From Gemmatimonadota bacterium (lineage in GTDB: Bacteria > Gemmatimonadota > Gemmatimonadetes > Longimicrobiales > Gaopeijiaceae): a stretch of 58,746 nt of DNA. The stretch spans positions 1-58,746 of the forward strand of contig JAPOYJ010000025.1 in assembly GCA_026706635.1 (NCBI GenBank). Direction: 5' to 3'. The position numbers and the translations under genes were made by a program. Below are positions 6,633-49,926 of the stretch, in pieces (within the stretch, counting starts at the first letter, position 1; each line of letters begins with the position of its first letter). A model generated the notes under the pieces. That model was not told the origin of the DNA, searched no databases, and worked only from the letters and a program-made list of their open reading frames with translations.

Positions 6633-6768
6633 GGAACCGGGGCCGGGCGGCGGGGTATGGGTACGACGGAGGTGTGGGCATGTATTTCGGGGCACGGGAG
6701 GGGCAGGCGGCGAGCGGTGAACTGAGCTGGCCGGAGGCGCTGGCTCGAAAGGAGCACTGGAGGTGCGT

Positions 6769-8568
6769 ATGAGAAAGATGATCGTCACGGCCAGCATCCC
6801 GTTGCTGGCCTGCTCGGACTTCGCGCTGGATGCCGACCGGGTCCCAACCACCCTGGAGCTCGAGCCGCAGTGCTCCCAGGTCGCGAGCGCCAGCCCGGTG
6901 CAGCTGAGGGTCCGGGTCAGGGACCAGGAAGGTGCCCTGATGCCCGTCCCCGGCTGGGCGCCGATCTCGGTAAAGGTGTCGGACTCGTCGATCGCCCGGG
7001 TGGGAGAGGACCTAGTGATGACCGGGAGGGGTGCCGGCAGGGTGGTGGTGACCGCAAGCATGGGCGACTTGGAGGGCGACGCGATCTTCCACATCAACGC
7101 CCCTCCCCTGCAGCTCTCGGCACCGCTGATCTACCTGACGCAGGCGGCCCAGAACGCCGAGAACTCCGTTCGGCTCATCGCCGGCAGGGACGCGCTGCTG
7201 CGAGTCTTCATGACGGGCGACGTCGCCAACAGCGCCTCCTCCGGGATCCGAGTCACTCTGCACCGCGAAGACGAGACGGTCCTCGACACGATGGTCCTGA
7301 CCGAGCGCGCCGGGATTCCCCTGGAGGTGGACGAGTCGACGCTGGAGGGATCGTACAACCTCTTGGTCCCCGGCGAGCACATTCAGCCCGGGACGGGCAT
7401 GGCCATCGAGCTGGACCCGATGTGTGGAACTCCCGTGGCCGAGGGCAGCCAGACGCGCTACCCCGAGTCGGGAGATACGCTGCTCGACATCGTGGCGCCC
7501 CAGACCTTTCGCCAGGTATTCGTCCCTACCCTGATGATCAACGACCCCGACTACGAAGTCTACACCTGGCTGGAGGGGATAGGCCCCAACTCCGAGCAGA
7601 TGCACCTCACACGCAACCTGTTGCCGGTCTCGGCGGACCTTGAGGTCGAGGTGCGCGACACCTTCTGGACGACCGCCAACCTGCGCACCTGGAATGGATG
7701 GCTGACCTGGCTCGACGAGATACAGGCGTTGAATATCCAGGAGGGGCGGCGCGGGTACTACTACGGGGTTATCGCCAGGCCGTACTTTGGCCTCCTCGGC
7801 TACGCCAACTTCGCCGTGCCATGGAGTGTCGGCATAGCGGATCCCGACACCTACACCCACGAGGTCGGGCACAACATGAACCTCAGGCACGCCCCCTGCG
7901 GCGGTGCCGGCGGGCCCGACCCCGACTATCCGCACGGAGGCGGGCGCATCGGGGTGTGGGGCTACGACAACGACAACCACGAGCTGAAGAACCCTTCCGA
8001 GTATCTCGACGTCATGTCGTACTGCGAACCCGTATGGATTAGCGACTACCACTTCGACCGCGCCACCACGCACCGGCTCGACGGCGACGGCGGCGTCGTT
8101 CTGAACGGTTTCGTGGAGCGCCGGGACGTGCTCGTCGTGTGGGGCAGCGTCTACGAGGGCCGCCTCCAGCTGGACCCGGCGATACTGCTGCGCGGACCGG
8201 TCGAGATGCCGAGTGCACCCGGTCCCTACACCGTCGAGGGTCTGGGTCCCGATGGCGAGCGCAGGTTCGCCTTCTCCTTCGCGCCCCTACCGACCGACCA
8301 CGGTGGCAGCACCTTCGTGTTCTTCGTCCCCTACGACCCCGAGTGGGATGAGGGCCTGCAGCGCGTGACGCTTGTCGGGCCGGAGGGGACGGACGAGGTG
8401 TTTCGGGGGAGCGCCCCCCCGGTCGCCGTGGTCACTCACCCGGAAACGGGCGCCATCAAGGCGATAGTCCGGGATTGGGACGGGACCGAGCTCCCAGTCA
8501 TGGACGGCATGGAGGTGTCGGTCTCGACAGGGCTGCCCGGACCTAGCAGCCCGTGGAAGAAACCCTGA
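6769..8568 (+). CDS. Lipoprotein zinc metalloprotease with N-terminal Ig-like (BIG2-type) domain
   Basis: The start chosen is ATG 6769, because GGAGG lies five bases upstream, rather than the in-frame GTG at 6763. The N-terminus is a lipoprotein signal with the lipobox IPLLACS, placing the protein in the outer membrane or periplasm. Residues about 25-110 form a bacterial Ig-like domain (VSDSSIARVGEDLVMTGRGA). Around residue 364 the zinc motif HEVGHNMNLRH matches the HExxHxxxxxH metzincin pattern, so peptidase activity is likely. The substrate is unknown. The last seven residues (SSPWKKP) and the TGA stop are encoded by the left end of a mosaic repeat that begins at 8543, so the original C-terminus may have been altered. 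Confidence 0.8.
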   Translation: MRKMIVTASIPLLACSDFALDADRVPTTLELEPQCSQVASASPVQLRVRVRDQEGALMPVPGWAPISVKVSDSSIARVGEDLVMTGRGAGRVVVTASMGDLEGDAIFHINAPPLQLSAPLIYLTQAAQNAENSVRLIAGRDALLRVFMTGDVANSASSGIRVTLHREDETVLDTMVLTERAGIPLEVDESTLEGSYNLLVPGEHIQPGTGMAIELDPMCGTPVAEGSQTRYPESGDTLLDIVAPQTFRQVFVPTLMINDPDYEVYTWLEGIGPNSEQMHLTRNLLPVSADLEVEVRDTFWTTANLRTWNGWLTWLDEIQALNIQEGRRGYYYGVIARPYFGLLGYANFAVPWSVGIADPDTYTHEVGHNMNLRHAPCGGAGGPDPDYPHGGGRIGVWGYDNDNHELKNPSEYLDVMSYCEPVWISDYHFDRATTHRLDGDGGVVLNGFVERRDVLVVWGSVYEGRLQLDPAILLRGPVEMPSAPGPYTVEGLGPDGERRFAFSFAPLPTDHGGSTFVFFVPYDPEWDEGLQRVTLVGPEGTDEVFRGSAPPVAVVTHPETGAIKAIVRDWDGTELPVMDGMEVSVSTGLPGPSSPWKKP

Positions 8569-8720
8569 CGGCATTCGAGGGGCGCTGCATCCGCGCTGGA
8601 CCGCTTCGCTCTGCGTTGCTTCTTGCACGAATAGCGCTGCTATTCGCGCTGCGAAGCGCCTTGCCAGCCCGGCGCAGCGCCCCTCTCGGTGCTCGCCTGA
8701 GTTTATCCACGGACTGCTAG
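8543..8720 (+). repeat. Complete CTAG-bounded mosaic repeat, 178 bp
   Basis: The copy starts at CTAGCAGCCCGTGGA and ends at TTATCCACGGACTGCTAG, so the two ends are inverted repeats and both carry CTAG. An inner perfect hairpin is CGAATAGC-GCT-GCTATTCG. It is nearly identical in sequence and orientation to the copies at 41296-41471 and 51565-51740. It forms the 3' end of the metalloprotease gene. Confidence 0.9.
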
Positions 8721-8761
8721 GGGCGGCCGATGACCAGCCCGGCAGCAAGCAGGAGGAGAGG

Positions 8762-9118
8762 GTGACAAGAAGGGTCGATTGGGCGTACCACCGCCCCGGG
8801 TGACGGAGTTGCAAGCGTACGCAGGAGTTTCTTGCGCGAAGCGGGGTCGCGGTGGTGGAGGTGCGAGACGCCAGGAAGAGCCCGGTGGACGCCTCCGAGG
8901 CGGTCTCGCTCCTCGGGGGCGCCACCGAGGTGTATGTGGCGAAGTCTCGGAAGTTCCTGCACTTCGACCTGGCGGCGAAGGGAGGCGCATCCGACGACGA
9001 GGTCGCCGCGCAGATCGTGAGTCGGTGGGGGAGGCTCAGGGCCCCCACGCTACGCGTAGGCTCTACCCTCGCCGTCGGCTACAACGAGGAGATGCTGACG
9101 GAGGTTGTCGGCTGCTAG
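8762..9118 (+). CDS. ArsC-family thiol-redox protein with in-frame TGA at the first redox cysteine (candidate selenoprotein)
   Basis: A strong ribosome site, AGGAGG at 8751-8756, precedes GTG 8762. Translation gives MTRRVDWAYHRPG, then TGA at 8801-8803, then RSCKRTQEFLARSGVAVVEV and 85 further residues to TAG. The total of 118 codons is the normal length for small ArsC/YffB-like proteins. In this family the position of the TGA is a cysteine in a HRPGCxxC-type motif, so reading TGA as selenocysteine would give UxxC. Conserved ArsC features continue on both sides (DARKSP, GRLRAPTLRVG, LAVGYNEE). Without TGA readthrough only a shortened protein from an internal GTG, lacking the redox site, could be made. 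A point mutation creating a pseudogene is the main alternative. No selenium-insertion genes lie in this window. Confidence 0.7.
8811..8835 (+). promoter_or_regulatory. Candidate bacterial SECIS hairpin after the TGA codon
   Basis: GCAAG at 8811-8815 can pair with CTTGC at 8831-8835. AC at 8819-8820 can pair with GT at 8827-8828, closing a GCAGGA loop that starts with G and holds GG. The loop lies 17 nt after the TGA, within the distance known for bacterial SECIS elements. The stem is short and was found by eye, so it is weak support. Confidence 0.3.
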
Positions 9119-9197
9119 CTCCTCGCACGAGCAGCTCCTCGCAGCTCGGATGCCCCCGGGGGAGACTCCACGGGTGCGGGATCGGGCAGGAGGTCGG

Positions 9198-9953
9198 CTA
9201 CCCTGTCCCGAAGCCGATCTGAAGGCCGATCCCGCTGGCGGAGAAGCTGTAGTCCCATGTGACCTCCTCTGGATCCACCTCCTGCGACTCCGGGTCGAAC
9301 GTGTGGTCCTTGCTGTAGCCGGTGACACCTGACCGCTCGTACCGCAGGCGAATGTCGATTGGGCGCTCGCCCGGGACGGTAAGGCCGATTCCAACGGCCA
9401 GCGACCACCTCGGCACGACGCCGTCTTCCGGGCGGTCGGTGAACTCGCCGATGGCCCCGAAGCCGGAGAACTGCACTGAGGCCATCTCCGTCGACCACCG
9501 GCGCAAACCCGCCACGAGGTAGCTGGATAGGTTGCGGGAGCGCAATTTGCGCCCAACGAAGCCGCTGACACCGACACCGACCTTGTTCTCGAACTCCCAT
9601 CTGCCCAGCCCCACCCTGCCCGCGCCACTTCCCTGGGGTTCCATCGTGCCACCGACGGTCCGCCGCGACGAGATCAGCCCCTGCAGCTCGCCACCCACGA
9701 GCAGACCGCGTTCGGTGGCACCGAGGTGCCCTATCGCGATCCCGGCGACGAAGTCCGCACCAGTCCCGGTTCCAGTGCCGGTGCTCTTTCCCGCCGACTC
9801 GGTAAGCGCCTTGGTGTGCTTGACGCGCAGCATGTTGATCTCGGGCGTGACGCGCACGTAGACTGGCGCCTGCGCAGCCGCCAGCGCAGGCAGGAGAATG
9901 CTGAGGGCCAACGCGGCAAGGCTAGCAGCCCGCGAACAAACCTCCCACGGCAT
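9198..9953 (-). CDS. Predicted outer-membrane beta-barrel protein
   Basis: The 251-residue protein has a hydrophobic signal, SLAALALSILLPALAAAQA, then alternating polar and aromatic strands with glycine-rich turns such as LVGGELQGLIS and FENKVGVGVSGFVGRKL. It ends in SASGIGLQIGFGTG, typical of small barrel porin-like proteins with no known ligand. The only convenient ATG (9953) lies inside a mosaic repeat, so MPWEVCSRAA is translated from repeat sequence and fuses directly to the signal core. Further upstream in-frame codons are also repeat sequence. The insertion probably replaced the original start. The threonine-glycine run GTGTGTG near residue 60 comes from a short simple repeat. Confidence 0.7.
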   Translation of the reverse strand: MPWEVCSRAASLAALALSILLPALAAAQAPVYVRVTPEINMLRVKHTKALTESAGKSTGTGTGTGADFVAGIAIGHLGATERGLLVGGELQGLISSRRTVGGTMEPQGSGAGRVGLGRWEFENKVGVGVSGFVGRKLRSRNLSSYLVAGLRRWSTEMASVQFSGFGAIGEFTDRPEDGVVPRWSLAVGIGLTVPGERPIDIRLRYERSGVTGYSKDHTFDPESQEVDPEEVTWDYSFSASGIGLQIGFGTG

Positions 9954-10102
9954 TCGAGCAGCGCTGCATCCCCGCTGGACCGCTTCGTCGCGCCTTGCCA
10001 GCGGGGCGCTTCGCCGGTCTTCGTGCTCGCCCGGGCCCGTCCACGGACCGCTAGCGCTTCGCCGCTCTCGGTGCTCGCGCGAGATTGTCCACGGACTGCT
10101 AG
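9922..10102. repeat. Two mosaic repeat modules joined at CTAG (9922-10054 and 10051-10102)
   Basis: CTAG occurs at 9922, 10051 and 10099, dividing the stretch into a 133-bp unit and an adjoining 52-bp unit (GCGCTTCGCCGCTCTCGGTG to TTGTCCACGGACTGCTAG). The modular tiling shows that the family is built from exchangeable pieces bounded by CTAG. The left unit provides the start codon and first residues of the beta-barrel gene on the minus strand. Confidence 0.85.
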
Positions 10103-10225: not shown

Positions 10226-10750
10226 GTGACCAGTCGCCTTCCTGTAGTCGGGGTGATGGGCGCTGGGGCCCACGACCACCGGGATCTCGCCGAACCCCTA
10301 GGGCGCGGTCTGGCGCACCTGGGGGTCCACCTCCTGACGGGCGGGGGGCCGGGTGTCATGGCGGCGGTGTCGCGCGCATTCGCCGAGGTGGGCGACCGGG
10401 CCGGCCTCGTGATCGGAGTGCTGCCCCTGATGGAGGGCACTCCGGAGACCGGGCCTGCGGCCGCGTACCCGAACCGGTGGGTTGAGATCCCCATCCGGAC
10501 CCACCTGGGGAGGCTGGGGGCCGACCCCCTCTCGCGCAACCATGTCAACGTGCTCACCTCGGACGTGGTGGTCGCCCTCCCGGGGAGTGTCGGCACTGCC
10601 TCCGAGGTGGAGCTGGCGACTGCCTATCGTCGCCCGATCGTCCTCCTGGGCGACCTTGACCGCGCCAGGGGGCTTCCGGGGGCGGTCGCCACCGCATCGA
10701 GCGTGGCCGCCGCGCTCGCGTTCGTGCGGCGGGAGCTCGGGATCCGGTGA
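10226..10750 (+). CDS. LOG-superfamily (TIGR00725-like) nucleotide-binding protein
   Basis: A 174-residue Rossmann-like protein with GVMGAGAHDH at the N-terminus, the loop LLTGGGPGVMAAVSRAF and the second signature ALPGSVGTASEVELA. These are the hallmark loops of the lysine-decarboxylase-like or LOG family and its molybdenum-cofactor-carrier-like relatives. Its true substrate cannot be told. The start is GTG 10226. Its last 70 bp have been copied together with the following lipoprotein gene and reappear at 12049-12119. Confidence 0.8.
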   Translation: MTSRLPVVGVMGAGAHDHRDLAEPLGRGLAHLGVHLLTGGGPGVMAAVSRAFAEVGDRAGLVIGVLPLMEGTPETGPAAAYPNRWVEIPIRTHLGRLGADPLSRNHVNVLTSDVVVALPGSVGTASEVELATAYRRPIVLLGDLDRARGLPGAVATASSVAAALAFVRRELGIR

Positions 10751-10893
10751 ACGGTTCTCCTTGGGCCGGTCGTGGCGGCAGCAGAGGGCTCGCTCTGGAC
10801 GGACCCCTGCGGGTGCGTTACTTTCGGGGTCGGGAACGGCGGCCACTCTCGGGATGCCGCCTCAAGTGTCGTATCTGCGCCCAGGAGGTACCG

Positions 10894-11592
10894 ATGGTAG
10901 TTGATTGTCAGAGAGCGATAGCGAAGTTGTCGGCGGGGCTTCTGGCCCTCCTCGTCGTGGCGGGAGCGGGCTGCGGCGAAGAGGAGGTCCATCCATGCGA
11001 CAGCGAAGACCCTCCTCCCGAATGTAACCAGTGTCCGCGTCCGTTGGGGATCATGCCGGATGATACTCTAGTGGTGGGCGACTCGCAACGCGTAAACGTC
11101 ACCGACTTTTTTGAGGATGCAGACTCGAACGATATCCTCATCTACACGGCCGAATCGTCGGACGAGTCGAAGGTGACGGTGGAGATGGACGGTGCTGTGC
11201 TGACCTACATCGGAGTAGATGCCGGCGAATCCGACATTACGGTCAATGCAACCGACAAGGAAGACTGTGCCGCCAAGCAGGAGTTCGAGGTGACGGTGAT
11301 GTATCCGAACCGACCGCCGATATGCGAATTTTTCCCACCGACGGACATTTGGCCCATCGGGACTACCGGTGAAAAGGACGTGCCTTGCTCGGACCCGGAC
11401 GGCGACGATATGACGTTTACGCTGGAAAGTAGCGATCCCGACGTCTTTTCGGTGACCTTGAGAGGGAATAAATTCGACTTCGAGGCGGTGAGCCTGGGCA
11501 CAGCCACGGTCACGGCCACGGCGACCGACACCGAGGGCAACACCGGGGATGCCGACTGGGGGATTACGGTCGTGGAAGAGGAAGACAACTAG
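10894..11592 (+). CDS. Ig/cadherin-like lipoprotein, duplicate 1
   Basis: ATG 10894 is set by AGGAGG five bases upstream, not the longer frame starting at 10747. The 232-residue product has a lipoprotein signal (LLALLVVAGAGCGEEE). Two acidic beta-sandwich repeats follow, with the recurring motif NVTDFFEDADSNDILIYTAE and TATDTEGNTGDADWGITVV, as in putative Ig-like surface adhesion domains. It is probably surface or periplasm anchored, with no enzyme motif. The gene, its leader region and the downstream hairpin are repeated at 12266. The TAG stop is part of CTAGCAG, the terminal motif of the mosaic repeat. Confidence 0.75.
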   Translation: MVVDCQRAIAKLSAGLLALLVVAGAGCGEEEVHPCDSEDPPPECNQCPRPLGIMPDDTLVVGDSQRVNVTDFFEDADSNDILIYTAESSDESKVTVEMDGAVLTYIGVDAGESDITVNATDKEDCAAKQEFEVTVMYPNRPPICEFFPPTDIWPIGTTGEKDVPCSDPDGDDMTFTLESSDPDVFSVTLRGNKFDFEAVSLGTATVTATATDTEGNTGDADWGITVVEEEDN

Positions 11593-12048: not shown

Positions 12049-12119
12049 GGGCGGTCGCCACCGCACCGAGCGTGGCCGCCGCGCTCGCGTTCGTGCGGCG
12101 GGAGCTCGGGATCCGGTGA
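12049..12119 (+). pseudogene. Copied 3' end of the LOG-family gene
   Basis: The 71 bp repeat 10680-10750 nearly exactly and encode AVATAPSVAAALAFVRRELG and the stop. There is no upstream remainder, so it is a duplication scar rather than a gene. Confidence 0.9.
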
Positions 12120-12265
12120 CCGGTTCTCCTTGGGCCGACTGTGGCGACAGCAGAGGGGTCGCTCCTGGACCGACCCCGGCGAGTACGTTATCCTCAGGGT
12201 CAGGAACGGGCGCCCCATTCTCGGGATGCCGCCCCAAGTGTCGTATCTGCGTCCAGGAGGTACCA

Positions 12266-12946
12266 ATGGTAGTTGATTGTCAAAGAGCGGTAGCGAGATT
12301 GTCGGCGGGGCTTTTGGCCCTCCTCGTCGTGGTGGGAGCGGGCTGCGACGATCCTCCTCCCCCTGAGGAGCCGAACCGGCCTCCGATTCCGTTCGGGATC
12401 ATTCCGGATGACACAGTAATTGTGGACGAGTCGAAACGCCTGAACGTCAAAGACTTTTTTAAGGATCCAGACTCGCTTGATATCCTCGTCTACACGGCCG
12501 AATCGTCGGACGAGTCTAGGGTGGCGGTGGAGATGGAAGGTGCTGTGCTCACCTACACTGGGGTAGCAGCGCCTGGAGATTCCAGGATTACGATCACTGC
12601 GACCGACCCGGAAGACGAAAGCGCCGAGCAGAAGTTTGAGGTGACGGTGTTGCATCCCAATCGACCGCCGGAATGCGGGTTTTTTCCGGTCACTTTTCCA
12701 ATCGGCGTTACTGTTGAGGAGGATCTAGAGGTTATTTGCTATGATCCCGACAACGACGAGATTACATCATACGCCGTAGAAAGTAGCGACCCCGATATCG
12801 TTTCGGCGCGTTTGGTGGATAAGACTCTTATTTACGAAACGGTGAGCGTTGGAACAGCTACGATCACGGTCACGATGACCGACACGGAGGGCAACACCGG
12901 GGAGGCCGACCTCGTTGTTACGGTTGTGGAGGAGGAAGGAAGATAG
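12266..12946 (+). CDS. Ig/cadherin-like lipoprotein, duplicate 2
   Basis: Paralogue of the gene at 10894, with the same leader, ribosome site (AGGAGG) and signal peptide (LLALLVVVGAGCDD). The 226 residues again contain two Ig-like units, with DFFKDPDSLDILVYTAESSD and TMTDTEGNTGEADLVVTVV, but the proline-rich linker (PPPPEEPNRPP) and the loops differ. The two copies differ mostly by in-frame changes, suggesting both proteins remain under selection. The stop TAG is immediately followed by CTAGCAGG. It is probably envelope anchored; no ligand can be assigned. Confidence 0.75.
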   Translation: MVVDCQRAVARLSAGLLALLVVVGAGCDDPPPPEEPNRPPIPFGIIPDDTVIVDESKRLNVKDFFKDPDSLDILVYTAESSDESRVAVEMEGAVLTYTGVAAPGDSRITITATDPEDESAEQKFEVTVLHPNRPPECGFFPVTFPIGVTVEEDLEVICYDPDNDEITSYAVESSDPDIVSARLVDKTLIYETVSVGTATITVTMTDTEGNTGEADLVVTVVEEEGR

Positions 12947-12996: not shown

Positions 12997-13332
12997 ATGT
13001 CAGTCAGCTCTGTAAACTTTACCTTGCACTGTGACGAGCCGAACCGGCCGCCAGCTTCGAATGGGATCATTCCGGGCGACTCCGTAGAGGCAGGGGAGTC
13101 GGTACGCGTAAACGTCACCGACTTTTTTCACGATCCAGACTCGCTTGATGTCCTGGTCTACACGGCCGAATCAGCGGACGAGTCGAGGGTGGCAGTGGAG
13201 ATGGACGGTCCTGAACTCACCTACACCGGGGTAGCAGCGCCCGGAGATTCCAAGATTACGGTCACGGCGACCGACCCGGGGGGCCTCTCCGCGGCGGACA
13301 TCTGGATCGTTGCAGTCGTGGAAGAGGGCTAG
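12997..13332 (+). pseudogene. Third, truncated Ig-like lipoprotein copy without signal peptide
   Basis: From about 13033 the sequence repeats the first Ig-like unit of its neighbours (DEPNRPPASNGIIPGDSVEA, VTDFFHDPDSLDVLVYTAES). It lacks the leader, the ribosome site and the lipobox; the upstream part is the terminator-like and TGTAA region of the preceding copy. An ATG at 12997 allows a 111-residue frame, but nothing supports export or translation. It is most likely a partial duplication product; a small cytoplasmic protein is less likely. Confidence 0.6.
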
Positions 13333-47004: not shown

Positions 47005-49926
47005 TCATGGGGCGGGCGGCACTCCGGGCAGTCGATACGCGCTCCGAGTGGGGCGGACCGGCCGGAGCAGCCAGTAGGGCCTGCGGGTTCCGTCTGGAGA
47101 GTGATGCGCGGCCGGGCGCGAGAGCTCCAGCCACCTCCGGAAGGCGTCTCGTGATCGGGCGGTGTCCACCGAGACGTCGCCGTATCGGTCGCCCGGCTCG
47201 GCGCGCTTCACGCGTACCGCCTGGTGCCAGCAGTGCGCTCCCGACACGGGGTCCGGCTGCACCGGAAAGGTCAGATTCTGGTGCACGCCCACATCCTTCC
47301 ACCAGATCCGCGCGGTATCCGGGTCGGGCGAGCCGAATGCGCCCGCCCCTCCCTTCCTGCGAATGCCCCACCCCGTGCCGTCCCGACTCAGATCGACCGT
47401 GGCGGTCGCCTGGCGGGCACCGCCGTTCAGCTTCCAGCGCCCCATGTGGTGCGAGCACGCCACCACCCCAGGGTGAATGCCCTCCGTGACCCACGCCTTC
47501 ACCACATAGTGGCCGATCGCGGTCTCGATGCGCACGAGGTCGCCCGTCTCAACCCCCACCCGAGCGGCGTCCTCGGGGTGCAGCCAGAGCGGGTTGGTGT
47601 GCGCGATCTCGTTCAGCCACTTCGCGTTGGCGCTCCGGGTGTGGATCTGCACCGGGAGGCGAAAGGTGGAGATCAGGCACATCTCGTCGCTCGCCAGATT
47701 CGACCTGTGCACATGGCTCCTCATATAGCCGGGCACTGCGCCCTCCGCCCACCCCCACTCGGCCAGAGTGCGCGACCAGAACTCAAGGCGTCCAGAGGGC
47801 GTCGGGAAGCCCCGTCGCACCACGCCGTCCACCAGAACCCCGACCCGCCTGCGACCGTCGCCGTCGCCTTCGAGGGGCGGCATCGGCACGACGTTCACTG
47901 TCGGCGGCGCCACACTCCGCGTGAAGACGCGGCCCATCGAGTCGACGTGCGTCTCCTCCAGCTCATCGGCTGCGATCGGCTCCTCATGGCGCCTTCCCAC
48001 CTTGGCGTCGATCTCGAAGGCCCCGTAACGCCGCATGTACTCGAGCGGCTCGAGTCCCTCGCTCCTCGCCTTCTCCGGGAGCCCCGGCACCGAGTTCTCG
48101 AAGATCCAACCGTAGTACTCGTCCACACCCATCTTCTCGCCGGGGCGCTCCCGCGACTCGAAGAACTCCCGGACGCCTCGTGATCCGTCCGGGTCGATTC
48201 GCCAGGTGAGCTCCATCCAGAACTCGTTCTCCTCCCACACTTCTCCCGGAGTGACGTCGCGGGTGCTCTCGACCGCCTCGCCGAAGAGCTCCCGCGCCGT
48301 CCGCAGCACCGGTTGGCGAAATCCGATCCAGCGCCCGTCGTACTGCTCGTACGACGTCAGGTCGTGTCGTTCCGAGGAGTGCCCCATGGGAAGCACGTAG
48401 TCGGCGAAGTAGGCGGTCTCGTTCCACGTCGGCGTCAGCGCCACATGCAGCCCGATTCTCTCGGGATCGGTGAGCATCTCGATCCAGGAGAAGCCGTCGG
48501 GGTTGGTCCAGACGGGGTTGTAGACCCGGGTGAAGTAGACGTCCAGCCGGCCCGCGCGCTCGGCCGTGAGGTGCGGCAGGAGGAAGGACATCTCCATCAG
48601 GCTGAGCGGGTAGTCGCCGGGCCAGGTAAGGTCGTTCCAGTGTTCGGGGTGCCTCGATGGCATCCTGATCGGTCTGGGGACGAACTTGTTCCACGCGTTG
48701 GGGTAGGTCCCTCCTGGCACGGCGATGGCCCCGAGCAGCGCATTCAACAGGAATAGGGCGCGCGTCACCTGCCACCCTCCCAGGTTCCCGGCAGCTGCGC
48801 TCCGCCAGCAGTGTGTCGAGAGCCTGGCACCGGCTGTGGCCACCAGCTCGGCGACGGCCTCTATCGTGCCTCTGGCCACCCCACTCTCGGCCTCTGCGAA
48901 CTCGAAGGTGTAGCGGGCATATAGGTCGCGCAGGATCCTCTCGAAGTCGCCGAAGTCGCCCTCCGCCTCTCCGTGCACCTCCTCCAGATACTCGCGCCAG
49001 TTCCACCAGCGCTCCACGAAGCCGCGATCGTAGCTCCCGCTCTGGATCAGGTGGTTGGCCACGGCCAGGAGCACCGCCGCCTCCGAGCCGGGATAGCTCG
49101 CCAGCCAGTGGTCGGCGTGGGTGGCGGTGTTCGAGAGGCGGGTGTCGAACACCACGAGCTTCGCCCCCCGCTTCCTGCCCTCGATGACCCGCTGGGCGTG
49201 GGGGTTGAAGTAGTGACCCGCCTCGAGGTGGCTGCTGACTAGCAGTATCACCCTGGCGTTCTCGTGGTCCGGGCTCGGCCGGTCCATCCCCATCCAGAGG
49301 TGGTAGCCGGTGCGGGCGCCCGAGGAACAGATGTTGGTGTGCGAGTTGTGGCCATCCACACCCCAGGCGGCGAGCATGCGCTCGGTGAATCCGTCCTCGC
49401 CGGGCCGGCCCACATGGTACATGATCTCGCGGTGCCTTCCCTCGTCGAGAGCCGCCCGGATCCGCCCCGCGATCTCGTCGAGCACCTCGTCCCACTCGAC
49501 CCGCTCCCAGCGACCGTCGCCACGCTCGCCAACTCGCCTAAGCGGGTGGAGGATTCGGTCCGGATCGGCGATCTGAGTAACTGTGGCGGGGCCCTTGGCG
49601 CAGTTCCTACCCCGCGATCCGGGGTGCTCGGGATTCCCCTCGAACTTGCGCACTTCGAGGCTGTCGCGATCCACGTAGGCGAGCAGGCCGCACGCCGACT
49701 CGCAGTTGAAGCAGGTAGTGGGCACCAGCGAGTAGCGACGCTCGACCCGCTCGGGCCAGCTCTTCGAGTCAAGCTCGGTCCAGTCGCCCCAGCGCTCCCT
49801 CGGGGGATAGGCGGCAAGCTCGCCGCCGCTCGCGCCAGGGTGGAAGGTCTCGCCGCGCTTCTCCACCTCGGGCCTCGCAGCCGAGACCCGTCGGCCGCAC
49901 TCGCACTTGCCCGCCCTGCGAGTCAC
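47005..49926 (-). CDS. Molybdopterin oxidoreductase catalytic subunit (PsrA/PhsA-like)
   Basis: A 973-residue bis-MGD enzyme of the DMSO-reductase family. The N-terminal 4Fe-4S site is CFNCESACG with the fourth cysteine in GRNCAKGPATV. HNSHTNICSSGARTGYH offers a cysteine near the metal, the usual molybdenum-ligand region. C-terminal MGD-binding parts include LWLHPEDAARVGVETGDLVR and VVACSHHMGRWKL. No twin-arginine leader is seen, although CECGRR with two extra cysteines precedes the domain. GTG 49926 overlaps the stop of the ferredoxin-NrfD gene. The substrate could be a sulfur, selenium or arsenic oxyanion and is not resolved. Confidence 0.85.
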   Translation of the reverse strand: MTRRAGKCECGRRVSAARPEVEKRGETFHPGASGGELAAYPPRERWGDWTELDSKSWPERVERRYSLVPTTCFNCESACGLLAYVDRDSLEVRKFEGNPEHPGSRGRNCAKGPATVTQIADPDRILHPLRRVGERGDGRWERVEWDEVLDEIAGRIRAALDEGRHREIMYHVGRPGEDGFTERMLAAWGVDGHNSHTNICSSGARTGYHLWMGMDRPSPDHENARVILLVSSHLEAGHYFNPHAQRVIEGRKRGAKLVVFDTRLSNTATHADHWLASYPGSEAAVLLAVANHLIQSGSYDRGFVERWWNWREYLEEVHGEAEGDFGDFERILRDLYARYTFEFAEAESGVARGTIEAVAELVATAGARLSTHCWRSAAAGNLGGWQVTRALFLLNALLGAIAVPGGTYPNAWNKFVPRPIRMPSRHPEHWNDLTWPGDYPLSLMEMSFLLPHLTAERAGRLDVYFTRVYNPVWTNPDGFSWIEMLTDPERIGLHVALTPTWNETAYFADYVLPMGHSSERHDLTSYEQYDGRWIGFRQPVLRTARELFGEAVESTRDVTPGEVWEENEFWMELTWRIDPDGSRGVREFFESRERPGEKMGVDEYYGWIFENSVPGLPEKARSEGLEPLEYMRRYGAFEIDAKVGRRHEEPIAADELEETHVDSMGRVFTRSVAPPTVNVVPMPPLEGDGDGRRRVGVLVDGVVRRGFPTPSGRLEFWSRTLAEWGWAEGAVPGYMRSHVHRSNLASDEMCLISTFRLPVQIHTRSANAKWLNEIAHTNPLWLHPEDAARVGVETGDLVRIETAIGHYVVKAWVTEGIHPGVVACSHHMGRWKLNGGARQATATVDLSRDGTGWGIRRKGGAGAFGSPDPDTARIWWKDVGVHQNLTFPVQPDPVSGAHCWHQAVRVKRAEPGDRYGDVSVDTARSRDAFRRWLELSRPAAHHSPDGTRRPYWLLRPVRPTRSAYRLPGVPPAP

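Follow-up and report, generated by a model that had tools for sequence, protein, structure and literature searches.

A catalogued ArsC-family selenoprotein gene in a Gemmatimonadota genome: conserved UGA, covarying putative SECIS hairpin and a probable redox role

Introduction

The glutaredoxin-coupled arsenate reductase ArsC and the redox regulator Spx are built on the ArsC branch of the thioredoxin fold and have a cysteine position in common. ArsC requires three arginines, Arg60, Arg94 and Arg107, together with its Cys12 (PMC5155266). In Spx, activation depends on Arg60 and Lys62, located beside and within helix 4 (PMC2801614). Selenoproteins with related names have been catalogued as well. 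A 2026 review lists both an ‘Arsenate reductase-like protein, UxxC’ and an ‘Arsenate reductase, UxxS’ (PMC13188914), the former name is also used with UxxC in a 2022 review (PMC9312934), and the selenoproteome of the Global Ocean Sampling contains an ‘Arsenate reductase 2’ (cd03032) with UxxC (PMC2398784). The UxxC protein of the two reviews is the family that NCBIfam models as NF041106, ‘ArsC family (seleno)protein’, and ‘Arsenate reductase 2’ is probably this family too. No experimental characterisation of the NF041106 family was found in the literature searched.

This work describes a gene of this kind from a Gemmatimonadota genome. It lies in a stretch of 58,746 nucleotides, the whole of which is called the window here. 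The selenoprotein family is already catalogued, and the window gene is an additional member rather than the founder of a new family. New here is the comparative part: an apparently exclusive use of selenocysteine (Sec), a covarying SECIS hairpin, co-occurrence with SelA, and the observation that the label arsenate reductase is inappropriate.

Results

The gene and its reading frame

A preceding sequence-only reading of the window had proposed a selenoprotein gene with a ribosome-binding site five bases before a GTG start and a TGA in place of the first cysteine of a CxxC-type motif; these elements are present (Table 1). The frame from GTG 8762 reads VTRRVDWAYHRPG-TGA-RSCKRTQEFLARSG... and runs over 118 codons to TAG, with U14-R-S-C17 as the active-site motif of the encoded protein, and the GTG is in register with the ATG starts of relatives in the alignment. 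Without recoding, the mechanical ORF list of the window offers only a frame of 88 aa, from GTG 8852, just as had been foreseen for an ordinary gene caller. Gene callers that ignore UGA as a Sec codon reduce the protein to this 88-residue stub, which has no active site.

Table 1. Features of the selenoprotein locus (positions in the window).
Feature	Position	Strand	Basis or remark
Ribosome-binding site AGGAGG	8751-8756	+	Sequence; 5 nt upstream of the GTG start
Gene of the probable ArsC/Spx-fold selenoprotein	8762-9118	+	GTG start, TAG stop at 9116-9118, 118 residues
In-frame TGA, codon 14, almost certainly read as selenocysteine	8801-8803	+	TGA in 160/160 locus records
TGC, Cys17, predicted resolving cysteine of the UxxC motif	8810-8812	+	Cys in 159/160 locus records
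Putative bacterial SECIS hairpin	8820-8836	+	Arms 8820-8826 and 8830-8836; apical loop GUU 8827-8829

Two repeat structures lie in the surroundings of the gene. A dispersed repeat of about 50 nt has one copy at 8672-8721, whose end is about 30 nt upstream of the ribosome-binding site in Table 1, and further copies at 10006, 10054, 15214, 15262 and 24739. Between 10662 and 13694, lipoprotein-like genes are tandemly duplicated (10747-11592, 12116-12946 and 12997-13332), with repeat blocks that are 71-92% identical.

Family membership and distribution

The recoded protein matches NF041106 over residues 5-111 with 111.6 bits (cut-off 85), and its UxxC motif stands at the N-terminus of helix 1, which begins at residue 15 of the AlphaFold model. 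The earlier statement that ArsC-like UxxC proteins occur among bacterial selenoproteins is borne out by this model and by the selenoprotein literature cited above. Among 394 genomes of the class, 77 matches above the cut-off were found in 76 genomes, each with exactly one TGA. Another group, at genus level, reaches 64-74 bits, and its members likewise have a single TGA. A protein-only scan of contigs found nothing, and an alignment query of contigs gave 69 loci, all with TGA. Most of the named records of these loci belong to Gemmatimonadota, with both Longimicrobiales and Gemmatimonadales represented, and some to Acidobacteriota and Planctomycetota. A few records are titled Gammaproteobacteria; since their contigs coincide with those of genomes from the family to which the window belongs, these titles are probably wrong. 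Within the source genome, no other ArsC-family gene was found with PF03960 at E ≤ 0.001, a weak test since the UGA gene itself scores below the cut-off of that model.

The ORFs within approximately 5 kb of the gene were clustered for loci from more than 20 genera, and no conserved partner gene emerged. The clusters that extend across many genera are antisense frames of mixed position or lie over the gene itself. With no conserved neighbour, the substrate of the protein can therefore not be guessed from its context.

Predicted fold and the likely role of the protein

The AlphaFold model of the 118-residue protein has a mean pLDDT of 94 and a pTM of 0.87. A PDB sequence search with the family profile placed Spx first (6ghb and 1z3e, E = 4e-10), followed by an ArsC-related protein and glutaredoxins. 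Foldseek and VIA-align likewise gave Spx and ArsC-related proteins as the best matches (Z 8-9.3, about 90 of the 118 residues), with NrdH redoxins and glutaredoxins next (Z 7-8 over 70-76 residues); all of these Z values are moderate. The invariant residues of the family gather at the UxxC motif and at an R-A-P loop. As set out below, two of the three arsenate-binding arginines of ArsC are replaced throughout the family, and both the score and the key residues expected of Spx fail. What is left is a thioredoxin fold that bears a UxxC active site and an invariant R-A-P loop, and a selenol/thiol-disulfide oxidoreductase is therefore the most likely product. Provided that selenocysteine is inserted, a redoxin is to be preferred, with reasonable confidence, to an arsenate reductase or a regulator.

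A selenium version of Spx, that is, a redox switch that binds the C-terminal domain of the RNA polymerase alpha subunit and controls stress genes, would fit the leading position of Spx in the sequence search and its place among the best structural matches, the retention of the CxxC switch position as UxxC, and a Gly aligned with Spx Gly52 that is kept in most members. We consider it unlikely nonetheless, as the protein reaches only 28.5 bits with TIGR01617 (Spx/MgsR; cut-off 75) and an invariant Ala takes the place of Spx Arg92. The helix-4 region is altered as well: residues 56-69 are a predicted β-hairpin in a stretch whose Spx counterpart contains Lys62 of helix 4, and there are four residues fewer than in Spx just before it. 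Lys is common in the family at the places of Spx Arg60 and Lys62; taken overall, the activation residues of Spx are not reproduced. Spx is furthermore described as conserved amongst Gram-positive bacteria (PMC2801614), not in this phylum, and the open-access literature searched, which is a part of the whole literature, held no report of a selenocysteine Spx.

A broader variant of this idea, to which we give a slim chance, is a selenium-based redox sensor: a relative of Spx in which a Sec-Cys pair in place of Cys-Cys would switch a protein partner, possibly RNA polymerase. The identity of the closest structural relatives and the absence of an operon partner allow such a role. The changed helix-4 region, like the Ala in the position of Arg92, argues against the mode of action of Spx but not against a role as sensor. 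If true, Gemmatimonadota would possess a transcriptional redox switch based on selenocysteine.

The description of the gene as ArsC-like, which the sequence-only reading had given, holds for the fold and for membership of NF041106 but does not extend to arsenate reduction. In a selenocysteine arsenate reductase, Sec14 would attack arsenate in the manner of Cys12 of R773/E. coli ArsC. The ArsC-family fold and the cysteine position shared by Spx and ArsC are compatible with this, and the class does hold other genes, of the true ArsC type, with an in-frame TGA (L181-L183). The role is quite improbable for the window protein, however. The place of Arg94 is occupied by the invariant Ala of R-A-P, that of Arg107 is never Arg in the sequences aligned, and that of Arg60 mostly holds Lys or a different residue, whereas the equivalent positions have retained arginine in true ArsC genes of the class. 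TIGR00014 has no match in the protein or in the genome, and ars genes do not recur near the gene across the loci. Since the equivalents of Arg94 and Arg107 are missing, an arsenate reductase is not expected, and the name ‘arsenate reductase-like’ is misleading. The three genes of the second UGA-containing ArsC kind in the class carry the true ArsC arginines and a UxxS or UxxC motif, and are candidate selenocysteine arsenate reductases.

Conservation of the UGA codon

Decoding of codon 14 as selenocysteine is almost certain in our assessment, with the conservation of the TGA, compensatory changes in the downstream hairpin and the presence of the insertion machinery all pointing to it, in agreement with the original proposal. 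The comparison of homologues at this position covered 160 locus records from three phyla, many of which are the same genomes in two collections and are thus counted more than once. Codon 14 is TGA in every record and TGC or TGT in none, one of the search patterns having been written for a Cys codon. The residue at +3 from the TGA is Cys in all records but one (L086), where the resolving Cys is replaced by Tyr (TAC), either a real variant or an error. The window copy has a TGAC context, and most relatives have TGAA.

The eight codons upstream of the TGA show a pN/pS of 0.20 in frame, compared with 2.3 and 2.1 for the two alternative frames (80 distinct sequences), and this segment is therefore translated as part of the protein.

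A covarying putative SECIS hairpin

The weak SECIS-like hairpin that had been noticed 17 nt downstream of the TGA exists and covaries across relatives, but is unremarkable by itself. It consists of CGCAGGA-GUU-UCUUGCG, its first base is the 17th after the TGA and its loop starts 23 nt after the TGA. The GUU loop, the stem of 7 bp, the distance of 23 nt and the compensatory changes in relatives agree with a bacterial SECIS. As a single sequence, the window hairpin is not significant. Its energy is -7.1 kcal/mol alone and -11.8 for the 50-nt region, with a published limit of -7.5; the 50-nt fold has z = +1.2; and under bacterial SECIS rules an equally stable hairpin follows 15% of all TGAs in the window. 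With energies that straddle the limit and equally good hairpins at this frequency, the single sequence proves nothing.

The comparison of relatives is more informative. Across 61 distinct sequences, 96% of the cells are paired. Cells changed on both sides number 28, versus 5.0 +/- 1.8 in shuffles (0/500 shuffles as high), and the covariation score is 0.284 versus 0.137 +/- 0.010 (0/500 reach it); these counts are inflated by the relatedness of the sequences and do not represent a formal probability. When the stem is slid, pairing drops to 31-69%. Typical stem variants are CGCAAGA/UCUUGCG, CUCGAGA/UCUCGAG and CCCAGGA/UCCUGGG, and in the second of these the protein tracks the RNA, with Thr-Gln-Glu-Phe-Leu-Ala becoming Thr-Arg-Glu-Phe-Leu-Glu. 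The stem is thus kept by compensatory changes, which is strong comparative support for a SECIS. A divergent group (L104-L110; family f4, genus g62) keeps the UGA and UxxC and has no GUU hairpin. In the window, Rfam gave no meaningful match on 8500-9400.

Selenocysteine machinery in the source genome

The source assembly (2.81 Mb, 86 contigs, 96% complete) contains selA, selB, selD and selC, as a SelB-dependent selenoprotein requires. All four products, for which a search of the genome had been suggested, score above the curated cut-offs: SelB on contig 5 (330 bits, cut-off 242), SelA on contig 65 (474 bits, cut-off 268), SelD on contig 1 (386 bits, cut-off 125) and, on contig 30, a tRNA-Sec whose anticodon is TCA (77 bits with the covariance model, cut-off 47). 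The lack of this machinery, which had been named as a ground for rejecting the selenoprotein proposal, thus does not apply. The selD gene itself (contig 1, 1264-2184, - strand; L009) has one in-frame TGA, at residue 11 of the match, and a downstream hairpin with a GUU loop as in the window gene. The gene for the formate dehydrogenase alpha subunit, fdhA (contig 13, 63080-65083, - strand; L184), which scores 717 bits and lies above its cut-off, has one in-frame TGA and, downstream of it, a hairpin whose loop is GGUCU. With the window gene, at least three selenoprotein genes would therefore use this machinery. The AhpD-related selenoprotein NF041238 has no match in the genome. The window also contains, at 47437-49719 on the - strand, a large molybdopterin-oxidoreductase-like frame (1465 codons) without in-frame TGA and with partial similarity to formate dehydrogenase.

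At the level of the class, 75 of the 76 genomes that carry the gene have SelA, versus 208 of the remaining 318 (Fisher p = 2e-11). The one carrier in which no SelA was found, G256, has the UGA gene twice, at L026 and at another site on contig 102; as this genome is 89% complete, its SelA may be missing from the assembly.

An ordinary stop or an assembly error, with the 88-residue frame from GTG 8852 as the real product, could appeal to the existence of that frame and to the modest stability of the hairpin taken alone. It is extremely improbable in view of a TGA that recurs in every locus record, across independent assemblies and three phyla, the protein-level constraint upstream of it, the compensatory stem changes and the presence of the machinery; the stub, moreover, would be without strand 1 and helix 1 of the predicted fold. 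A sequencing error at the TGA in particular appears very unlikely because the codon is conserved across independent assemblies.

UGA also serves as terminator, both of the selenoprotein gene (101 of 158 loci) and of its upstream neighbour in the window (6763-8568). It is therefore both stop and sense, as expected for selenocysteine and unlike a code change. A code change, by which UGA would be read as an ordinary amino acid in this genome, would explain the in-frame UGA and a tRNA with a UCA anticodon, but its probability is negligible with these TGA terminators and with that tRNA being tRNA-Sec by the covariance model.

Discussion

We conclude with high confidence that the gene encodes a selenoprotein with a redox role, no particular substrate being implied. 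In the proposed mechanism, SelB would bind the hairpin, bring Sec-tRNA-Sec with it and insert selenocysteine at the UGA. The product would belong to the ArsC/Spx branch of thioredoxin-fold proteins and have Sec14-x-x-Cys17 at the N-terminus of helix 1, most likely as a small, cytoplasmic, stand-alone selenol/thiol-disulfide oxidoreductase. Sec14 would attack a disulfide or an oxidised thiol of the substrate, Cys17 would resolve the intermediate by forming a selenenylsulfide, and the protein would then be recycled by a thiol reductant of the cell.

The locus points to the use of selenocysteine in a small redox protein of Gemmatimonadota and some Acidobacteriota and Planctomycetota, represented mostly by uncultured assemblies. 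As far as searched, Sec is kept in this family and Cys never occurs in its place. A family that is seemingly intolerant of Cys would offer a good test of the chemical benefit of selenium.

Compared with the other members of NF041106, the window copy is the same in score, length, UxxC motif and its single in-frame UGA; it is 37-56% identical to the relatives aligned, and no difference removes it from the family. With Spx, the RNA-polymerase-binding redox regulator of Bacillus subtilis (1z3e, 6ghb), it shares the ArsC-branch thioredoxin fold, the position of the redox pair and the VGYNE segment, but it has Sec for Cys10, Ala for Arg92 and a predicted β-hairpin at the helix-4 region. The glutaredoxin-coupled ArsC (TIGR00014; E. 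coli/R773) has the same fold and the same catalytic Cys/Sec position, whereas the window protein lacks equivalents of Arg94 and Arg107. The UGA-containing true ArsC genes also have UGA at the catalytic position of the ArsC fold, but they retain all three arginines and form a family separate from NF041106. NrdH redoxins and glutaredoxins have in common with the window protein the thioredoxin fold, a dithiol-type active site and, likely, the chemistry; they belong to a different family, are shorter and are without the ArsC-type insertion.
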